IMG/VR virus record: IMGVR_UViG_3300032116_000532 | Location: 1-39,395 of that record | Direction: 5' to 3' (one strand) | Length of the DNA stretch: 39,395 bases | From: a virus | Position numbers and translations under genes: made by a program | The notes under the pieces: generated by a model | Seen by the model: the letters and a program-made list of their open reading frames with translations, nothing else | The model's database searches: none | Told to the model about the DNA's origin: nothing | In this document: piece after piece, positions 255-4,228 of the stretch | Numbering within the stretch: the stretch's first letter is position 1 | Layout of the letters: every line of letters begins with the position of its first letter

Positions 255-530
255 ATGAATAGATTTAGAGAAGGATTTGGTATGGTGTCTAATACTGTAA
301 TAAGAAACCCAGATATCTCATTGAGAGCTAAGGCTTTATATGGATATCTGGCTTCTTATGCAGATGCTGATACAGGACAATCAACTGTCAGTATTAACAG
401 GATGGCATCTGAATGTGGTATAGGTGTATCAACAGCTAAAAGAATACTTGCTGAACTGGTTAAATACGGAGTGATTAAAAGAACATACCGTGGTTTAAAA
501 GAAAGTTACATCACCACCCTGTTGAAATAA
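255..530 (+). CDS. Helix-turn-helix (winged-helix) DNA-binding protein
   Basis: This 91-residue protein has the layout of the phage and plasmid winged-helix domain found at the N terminus of replication initiators and small regulators. It shows a VIRNPDISLRAKALYGYL segment followed by a recognition-helix region, SINRMASECGIGVSTAKRIL, and a wing, YGVIKRTYRG. In the family this domain binds DNA, in replication initiation or transcription control. The protein stops soon after the wing, so it is probably a stand-alone regulator rather than a full initiator. It is the first complete gene on the + strand and precedes a 200-base non-coding stretch with hairpins. The fold is fairly certain; the target is unknown. 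Confidence 0.75.
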   Translation: MNRFREGFGMVSNTVIRNPDISLRAKALYGYLASYADADTGQSTVSINRMASECGIGVSTAKRILAELVKYGVIKRTYRGLKESYITTLLK

Positions 531-931: not shown

Positions 932-1153
932 ATGCAAAAGACAGCTATGCAGATATTGATAGATCATTTAGATCCTATCCATTCTGGTATATTACACAAA
1001 GCTATTCATCTTAGAGACACTGTAGAAAAACAACAAATCATAGACAGTGTAATCTATGGTGTAGAACAACTCACCGATCAGGGAGATGTAGAAAATGATA
1101 ACAGGGCTGAACAATATTATAATGAAAAATATGAAACTAACCACGTACACTAG
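932..1153 (+). CDS. Small phage protein of the 'KQTA...AEQYYNE' type
   Basis: The protein has 73 residues and an unknown function. It starts MQKTAMQILIDHL, has a central EKQQIIDSVIYG segment, and ends RAEQYYNEKYET. The same landmarks in the same order occur in the 75-residue protein at 2350-2577 (KQTAVEWLVEQI, EKEQIIDAY, WAEQYYNETY), so the two are paralogues. Small proteins of this pattern are common in phages of Bacteroidota, but I know of no assigned role. The gene starts just after a terminator and lies upstream of the tmRNA. It is predicted to be soluble and mostly helical. Confidence 0.7.
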   Translation: MQKTAMQILIDHLDPIHSGILHKAIHLRDTVEKQQIIDSVIYGVEQLTDQGDVENDNRAEQYYNEKYETNHVH

Positions 1154-1286
1154 TTATAACACAATCAACCTAATCCCTTGTATAGATTTAACATATGAAA
1201 AATTCTATGAAGGAGGATTTTGTCATTTAAGACTTGATATTGGTTGGTTAAAATGGGGAATCAGTATTATATTTGTAGACAAATAG
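1131..1286 (+). CDS. Small protein, 51 aa
   Basis: The frame opens inside the end of the previous gene. The start at 1131 (MKLTTYTSY) is chosen over ATGs at 1095 and 1122 because it gives the shortest overlap. The C-terminal half, GGFCHLRLDIGWLKWGISIIF, is hydrophobic and amphipathic and recalls the end of the 56-residue protein at 36639-36809 (TRLRIGIIFAIVDV). Its TAG stop at 1284-1286 touches the first base of the tmRNA, so both may share a transcript that needs processing. Coding is plausible but not certain. Confidence 0.5.
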   Translation: MKLTTYTSYNTINLIPCIDLTYEKFYEGGFCHLRLDIGWLKWGISIIFVDK

Positions 1287-1633
1287 GGCCCGTCTGGATT
1301 TGATCCGTATGAGACAGGTATGTACACATGCAGACAAAGTAGGAATGTCTTTAAATACCTGCAAAACAATAAACGCAAAGACTAAGTCTCAGCGTGTAGC
1401 AGAAGGTGATGCTATCTTAGCTTCTATCTTCGGTGAAGTAGCAGTAGCTGCCTAACCTACGGGGTAGTCATACCTGGCAACAGAAAATGACAAGCTGTTT
1501 TCCTAGTTATGTCAAAACTAGGTGGTGGTAAGGCGACCTCTTGGTTCCCCATACTGATCAGTAGATCTAAGCATGTGAGACGTTGTACATATGGGTACTT
1601 ACGGAGACAGGGGTTCGACTCCCCTCGGGTCCA
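1286..1633 (+). ncRNA. ssrA: tmRNA (transfer-messenger RNA)
   Basis: tmRNA rescues ribosomes stalled on broken mRNA and adds a degradation tag. The 5' end GGGCCCG (1286-1292) pairs over 7 bp with CGGGTCC (1626-1632). The third pair is G-U, the identity element read by alanyl-tRNA synthetase, and discriminator A1633 follows. A T arm, AGGGG-TTCGACT-CCCCT, sits just before the 3' strand. TCTGGATTTGA after the acceptor and CTAAGCATGT near 1571 match conserved tmRNA sequences. Between them lies an open tag frame ending GTA GCT GCC TAA (stop 1453-1455), then a region rich in possible pseudoknot stems. CCA is not encoded (CTA follows A1633), so it would be added by the host. A strong terminator follows. 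Length, about 350 nt, is normal. Pairing was checked by hand only. Confidence 0.9.
1375..1455 (+). other. tmRNA tag-peptide reading frame
   Basis: With GCA (1375-1377) as resume codon, the tag has 26 codons before TAA. It begins AKTKSQRVAEG and ends FGEVAVAA. The C-terminal -VAVAA resembles the -ALAA end recognised by ClpXP-type proteases. The resume codon is an inference from the usual Ala/Gly preference. Most bacterial tags have about 10 residues, so this one is long. The frame is open back to an ATG at 1309, which leaves the resume point uncertain. Confidence 0.6.
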
Positions 1634-1663
1634 CTATTTCTCATAGAAATGGCAAACAATCAA

Positions 1664-1694
1664 CCCCGGTGTTTCTACACTGGGGGCTTTTTTT
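1664..1694 (+). terminator. Rho-independent terminator after tmRNA
   Basis: CCCCGGTGT (1664-1672) pairs with ACACTGGGG (1677-1685), with one G-U pair and a 4-base loop. A GC step and seven T (1688-1694) follow. It sits about 30 bases beyond the tmRNA 3' end, as expected for an independently terminated stable RNA. Confidence 0.85.
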
Positions 1695-3697: not shown

Positions 3698-4228
3698 ATG
3701 ACAAATGAGCAATATCAAGAAATGAGGGCTGAGTATATTGAGTATGTAAAAGGTTTTATGAATGAATTTGGAAACTTTGGTCCTATGATCACTGTATTTG
3801 CAGATGTAGAGGGTGAAGAAAAGCCTGCTATTATTCATATTCCAATCCCTCCGAAATTTATGGAGAATGACGAGTCTAAAGATGAGTTTGCAAATGAAGT
3901 AATACCTGATATATTTGCAGAACTTAAGGAAAAATTTACCCCGATAGGTGTAGCTTGGGCTGCAGAAGCTTGGGTGAGAAGTGTTGATAAAGATTCAGAT
4001 ATAATCAACTATAAAAATGCACCTATTAAAAAAGAGGTAATCTTTATTTCTATAGAAGATAAAAATGGATCAGAAACAATAGCTTATGATATTATCAGAC
4101 ACGGTAAACAAGTGACCCCTACAGGTGAACTGGTAGACACAGTGGAACTTAAAGAAGATGAATCACTAAAAGCTATGGATGGAATTGCTGGTAGATTTTC
4201 TAACCTATACAGCAGATTTTTTGACTAA
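3698..4228 (+). CDS. Hypothetical protein, 176 aa
   Basis: Not recognised. The protein has a mixed alpha/beta sequence. It shows an N-terminal helix, a strand pair around PMITVFADVEGEEKPAIIHIPI, a long central helix ending GVAWAAEAWVRSV, and a C-terminal RFSNLYSRFF. The IAYDI-RHGKQ and VFADVEG stretches look like core strands of a compact domain. It starts two bases after the upstream stop. Small proteins with the 'AWAAEAWVR' helix occur repeatedly in large phages, but I cannot attach a function. Confidence 0.65.
   Translation: MTNEQYQEMRAEYIEYVKGFMNEFGNFGPMITVFADVEGEEKPAIIHIPIPPKFMENDESKDEFANEVIPDIFAELKEKFTPIGVAWAAEAWVRSVDKDSDIINYKNAPIKKEVIFISIEDKNGSETIAYDIIRHGKQVTPTGELVDTVELKEDESLKAMDGIAGRFSNLYSRFFD

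Follow-up and report, generated by a model that had tools for sequence, protein, structure and literature searches.

Whether a phage may carry a complete tmRNA, the RNA that frees stuck ribosomes, and what it would gain from one, is the question raised by positions 1286–1633 of the DNA analysed here, a linear IMG/VR record of 39,395 bases (a 39-kb fragment) that we call the window. A preliminary description had proposed a tmRNA gene at these coordinates, and they proved exact. ARAGORN called a tmRNA at 1286–1634 (+), and Rfam RF00023 matched 1286–1636 over the full length of the model (positions 1–374) with 87.7 bits and an E value of 7e-33, the gathering score being 47. The alignment to RF00023 was colinear from end to end; the gene did not have the permuted two-piece form (RF04321). 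Its mature 3′ end is the discriminator A at 1633, and the bases that follow are CTA, so that CCA is not encoded. The same description had reported a 7-bp acceptor with a G3–U70 pair, an A discriminator, a perfect T arm, the conserved CTAAGCATGT and a terminator belonging to the gene, and we found all of these (Table 1), with 3 terminator-like sites observed compared with 0.4 expected from shuffles. Pseudoknots were recovered in part: PK1 was clear, with a score of 24 that was reached by 0 of 60 shuffles, whereas the PK2–PK4 part aligned to RF00023 with low posterior in cmscan. The same PK1 layout, with different sequences, was present at five other loci (L002, L085, L086, L089 and L102). A simple pseudoknot search found no PK1 in L093, FpV4 or phi14:2, and none above shuffles in several other compared tmRNAs. 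We conclude that 1286–1633 is a real, complete phage tmRNA.

Table 1. Features of the tmRNA gene and its surroundings in the window
Feature	Position	Strand	Basis and remarks
Upstream synteny anchor, HTH_36 protein	255–530	+	Pfam PF13730; 5′ of the tmRNA in L002, L093, L098, L100, L101 and G009; present in tmRNA-less L116
Small ORF	1095–1286	+	Overlaps the tmRNA by one base, the last of its stop codon; relatives just upstream of the tmRNA in L099, L100 and L101 (39%, E 3e-10)
tmRNA (ssrA) gene, one-piece	1286–1633	+	348 nt up to the discriminator A; ARAGORN and RF00023
Acceptor 5′ strand GGGCCCG, with G3 of the alanine identity pair	1286–1292	+	7/7 pairs with 1626–1632; covariation over 16 distinct tmRNAs
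PK1 pseudoknot	1332–1362	+	AGACA 1332–1336 with UGUCU 1346–1350; GUAGG 1339–1343 with CCUGC 1358–1362
Tag reading frame	1375–1455	+	Resume codon GCA, 26 codons AKTKSQRVAEGDAILASIFGEVAVAA, stop TAA; ARAGORN; alignment of the resume site across 20 phage tmRNAs
Conserved CTAAGCATGT, 3′ side of helix P2	1567–1576	+	Sequence; kept in alignment of 12 relatives
T arm AGGGG-TTCGACT-CCCCT	1609–1625	+	5/5 pairs; compensatory changes in relatives
Acceptor 3′ strand CGGGTCC with U70, plus discriminator A	1626–1633	+	7/7 pairing, G3–U70
Intrinsic terminator CCCCGGTGTTTCTACACTGGGG then GCTTTTTTT (T run)	1664–1685	+	Well formed; similar hairpin after the L094 tmRNA
Downstream synteny anchor, function not assigned	3698–4228	+	3′ of the tmRNA in L002, L093, L098, L099, L100, L101 and G009; present in L116

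Comparison with other phage tmRNAs indicated that the structure has been kept under change. All 20 phage tmRNAs retained 7/7 acceptor pairs, the G3–U70 pair and 5/5 T-stem pairs, and did so with 9 different 5′ acceptor strands. These tmRNAs gave 16 distinct rows for covariation, in which 192 of 192 cells paired compared with a shuffled mean of 77%, and 9 of the 12 pairs changed on both sides. Because a script that used the T arm took these rows from the gene ends, the alignment is biased in favour of the structure, but no shuffle came near the observed pairing or covariation score, and slid controls stayed far below it. Two loci that are about 96% alike around the gene (L088 and L090) nevertheless had different, fully compensated acceptors and T stems. 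That every acceptor and T-stem pair was kept while most had changed on both sides argues that tmRNA function is maintained in this phage set.

The tag peptide, which was absent from the preliminary description, was read from ARAGORN and from alignment to relatives; in the window it ends in VAVAA. The tag frame was open from the same place in 20 of 20 compared phage tmRNAs, with tag lengths of 23–38 aa by aligned resume sites and of 26 or 27 aa in most of the family. The aligned resume site replaced the ARAGORN start where the latter was later (L088, L090, Calle_1 and phi14:2) or in another frame (L086), and these starts are inferred. Tags among the 20 tmRNAs ended in VAVAA or AIAA, or in YALAA (L085 and L102); those without a terminal Ala-Ala ended in ELELA (L087), VAVGV (Calle_1) or LAMVA (phi14:2). 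The distant tags of L086, L088 and FpV4 had the motif NMAF...VAVAA in common (the C-terminal part in FpV4 being ...NMAFSLIREDVAVAA). The VAVAA, AIAA and YALAA endings fit a retained degradation signal, and the window's VAVAA, like the YALAA of two relatives, may point to proteolysis. As Ala-Ala is missing from the end of several related tags, not every one of them is necessarily a signal for degradation. The coding signal in the tag was weak, with pN/pS values of 0.69 (in frame), 0.76 (+1) and 1.73 (+2); the in-frame value was not clearly below that of the +1 control, and selection on the peptide was thus not evident.

In these genes the tag, with its 23–38 aa, is the least expected and the most distinctive part. 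A 9-aa tag, GENNYALAA, was found in seven tmRNAs on other (proviral) viral contigs; as GENNYALAA was the search query itself, the finding documents the existence of 9-aa tags beside integrated elements but does not make them the norm. Among these seven, one adjoins an integrase whose plasmid relatives are all from Bacteroidota, suggesting that at least one of these contigs is of Bacteroidota type. Short tags also occurred in phages of other hosts (9 aa in Streptomyces phage Forrest and 13 aa in Bacillus phage G) and in the permuted tmRNAs of gut crAss-like phages (13–14 aa). The gene shares with the standard bacterial form (RF00023) the parts of the tRNA-like domain, PK1, the resume codon, the tag frame and an Ala-Ala C terminus, and differs from it in tag length, 26 aa instead of 10 aa, which is the commonest length in the tmRNA database, where the shortest is 2 aa (PMC11915505). 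Tag length varies widely in that database, and a long tag alone is therefore not a new kind.

Culturable phages of Flavobacteriia were among the closest parallels. The tmRNA of Cellulophaga phage Calle has been published (PMC8776804), and phages Calle_1 and phi38:1 (Pervagoviridae) resemble the window in having a one-piece tmRNA with a long tag (30 aa by alignment), although the tag sequence differs from that of the window. The annotated Calle_1 tmRNA (NC_062744, 43002–43361) was shifted, as both RF00023 and ARAGORN start it 52 bases upstream (L149, 1451–1812). Flavobacterium psychrophilum phage FpV4 carries an unannotated tmRNA (NC_041872, 81947–82361 (−); RF00023, 58.2 bits), and the DNA around it was found at 99% identity or more in 29 F. 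psychrophilum phage records. FpV4 is like the window in its long tag ending in VAVAA, its G3–U70 pair and a related terminase, and unlike it in the tag length (35 aa by alignment), the resume codon (GGA) and its genome of 88 kb. The unannotated tmRNA of phi14:2 (NC_021806; L150, 1532–2003), with a tag of 38 aa by alignment, scored 46.0 against the RF00023 cut-off of 47, and lies in a region where several small ORFs were once annotated and have since been withdrawn from the record.

Among gut crAss-like phages (Crassvirales), cr10_1 is likewise a tmRNA carrier but has a permuted form (as annotated) with a 14-aa tag, GNNFVTDYTQLAVA; a RAGATH-9 RNA (97 bits) lies about 1 kb away (L130, 2732–2910 (−)). 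ARAGORN also called permuted tmRNAs in cr115_1 (L154) and Dulem virus 42 (L153), with the tags GNTSYIMNYSRIAA and GNDNNIVDYTHVA, at RF04321 scores of about 37 bits, under the cut-off. In the literature searched, we found no paper on the tmRNA tags of crAss-like phages. Other phage-borne rescue RNAs are those of OM43 phage Melnitz, which has a two-piece form with a riboswitch (PMC9004378), and of huge phages, some of which bring SmpB as well (PMC7162821), unlike the window phage set, in which we found none. As a rate, the rarity of ssrA in phages that the preliminary description stated is borne out, with a tmRNA in 402 of 18,146 phage genomes (PMC9004378) and 79 unique phage sequences among the 97,179 of the tmRNA database (PMC11915505). 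Phage tmRNA genes were thus already known; what is added here is a freshwater, crAss-related group whose tag is unusually long, as it is in related phages.

The assignment to that group came from protein comparisons. The window's family B DNA polymerase had relatives in 80 viral loci (53–100% identity), whose contigs reach 130 kb, and we place the window contig, which comes from a lake virus, in a freshwater phage group of about 110–130 kb that appears to be related to crAss-like phages. The large terminase of a 121-kb relative (G009) had its nearest annotated matches in Crassvirales, Flavobacterium and Cellulophaga phages, and the window's DnaB-like helicase matched crAss-like phages (Crassvirales). 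Identity to Crassvirales was about 25% for both proteins; this relatedness is one of sequence similarity, and Flavobacterium and Cellulophaga phages outside the order matched the terminase as well. SD-like motifs preceded only 7 of 121 ORFs, as in Bacteroidota. On the strength of the terminase relatives, the helicase matches and the rarity of SD-like motifs, the host is most likely a member of the Bacteroidota. The tag ending FSRVAVAA resembles cyanobacterial tags, which hinted at a cyanobacterial host; that idea was set aside on the terminase and start-site evidence, which favours Bacteroidota. The polymerase also matched one contig in a Sphingomonadaceae MAG; that MAG has a permuted tmRNA and the contig, which contains a group I intron (L097, 1467–1724; 91 bits), is more likely a mis-binned phage contig, and this host was not used.

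The preliminary description had further suggested that the tmRNA lies between two paralogous small genes, in an accessory block gained by transfer. The immediate flanks (932–1153 and 1725–2069) were not paralogues (E 28). A paralogous pair does exist on either side, further apart, at 932–1153 and 2350–2577 (33% identity, E 1e-6); these two proteins share an AEQYYNE(K/T)Y end, and neither matched a Pfam family. The recent gain of such a block found no support. Relatives of the genes at 255–530 and 3698–4228 flanked the tmRNA in conserved order at six loci or genomes (Table 1), and the tmRNA occupied one syntenic place where relatives were compared. A relative without a tmRNA (L116, from G005) differed at exactly that place, where its two outer neighbours are still present and enclose different genes and non-coding DNA instead, which speaks for gain or loss at one fixed place rather than for a mobile block. 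Two of the non-coding stretches in L116 are long (710–1060 and 1840–2090), and neither gave an Rfam match up to an E value of 1. Some relatives had tRNA genes near the tmRNA, and in L088, L089 and L090 the discriminator was followed directly by CCTCCAC, as if an extra copy of an acceptor end had been left by recombination.

RF00023 detected a tmRNA above the cut-off in 10 of 50 records searched, and a scan for the tag pattern recovered additional copies. Seven of the 11 relatives of at least 100 kb had a tmRNA (G004, G006, G007, G008, G009, G034 and G037). In the other four (G003, G005, G030 and G036) none was detected by RF00023, permuted-form or pattern searches, and the tmRNA is therefore dispensable in some relatives. 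The G007 copy (L094, reverse complement 815–1593) is about 780 nt long, with intact ends, the tag GKTQSSRVAEGEAILASIFGEVAVAA and an enlarged part after the tag; it was missed by ARAGORN and by RF00023 at the cut-off, RF00023 finding only part of it. Weak matches to the T arm alone in G022 and G005 were not counted, as these loci (L095 and L096) read like tRNA genes, and a later pattern match in G022 was a tRNA-Met. A match to CTAAGCATGT with its flanks in L104 (230–251) was due to chance, the true tmRNA lying elsewhere in that locus. A DNA similarity search with the tmRNA in a phage collection matched nothing but 29 bases of the T arm in Streptomyces phages.

Given the complete parts and the strict covariation, trans-translation appears by far the likeliest role, and the gene probably yields a functional tmRNA with which the phage takes part in host trans-translation during infection. 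As inferred from established tmRNA biology, host AlaRS would charge the phage tmRNA and host SmpB would deliver it where ribosomes have stalled on reaching the 3′ end of a cut mRNA. Such a ribosome would then switch to the GCA codon, add the 26-residue phage tag and stop at UAA, and the product would be degraded by a host protease that reads the hydrophobic C terminus ending in Ala-Ala. The phage would probably gain additional capacity for rescue at a stage of infection when much mRNA is broken down. The preliminary description also raised, as a conjecture, escape from a host defence that acts on stalled ribosomes. No match to SmpB (PF01668) was found in the window fragment or in 17 other phage records, suggesting that host SmpB is needed and that it and host AlaRS would have to serve the phage tmRNA. 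The same finding would suit a decoy or inhibitor that sequesters SmpB or ribosomes of the host, a role suggested for the mycobacteriophage DS6A form that has only the tRNA-like domain; when expressed, that type of RNA inhibits tmRNA (PMC4131195, PMC11915505). A decoy would need no mRNA-like part, resume codon, tag frame or PK1, yet all are present here and the frame is open in every tmRNA compared, which makes this explanation very improbable.

We consider it just as hard to credit that the gene serves no purpose in lytic growth and is an attachment-site copy by which host ssrA is made whole once the phage has integrated. Integration into tmRNA genes is common, an integrase lies beside a host-type tmRNA in L162, and in G007 the tmRNA has an integrase-like gene about 2 kb away; however, the window gave no Phage_integrase match, and 7 of 8 relatives likewise lacked one. 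The phage tag is also not the same as the Bacteroidota host tag found in this analysis, and the host gene would therefore not be restored unchanged. The tags themselves bear on another proposal, that the phage tmRNA mainly swaps the host tag for its own, so that proteins truncated in infection are treated differently from those given the 9-aa host tag, by decaying more slowly, by passing to another protease or by ending up elsewhere. Their length beside GENNYALAA, at least one copy of which adjoins a Bacteroidota-type integrase, the NMAF...VAVAA shared by distant tags and the endings without Ala-Ala are in keeping with such a swap. Most tags nonetheless still end in Ala-Ala, two of them in YALAA as in the host tag, the tag pN/pS is not clearly below that of the control frame, and length alone is no sign of changed function, so we judge a swap of this kind unlikely.

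Trans-translation with host factors remains our preferred reading, and under it the window clearly adds a member of a freshwater, crAss-related group to the phages that bring a ribosome-rescue RNA of their own. Several genes of this type are missed by standard tools or given a wrong start, and phage tmRNAs are thus probably undercounted. A long tag of the same kind occurs in culturable Flavobacterium and Cellulophaga phages, which offers a bench-testable route to how a phage benefits from its own tmRNA. Conceivably, although we regard this as rather doubtful, several lineages of Bacteroidota phages share a tmRNA whose tag has grown to 23–38 residues, keeps related C-terminal patterns (NMAF...VAVAA, for example) and is unlike the 9-residue host tag, and through it the phage would take over both ribosome rescue and the fate of truncated proteins.
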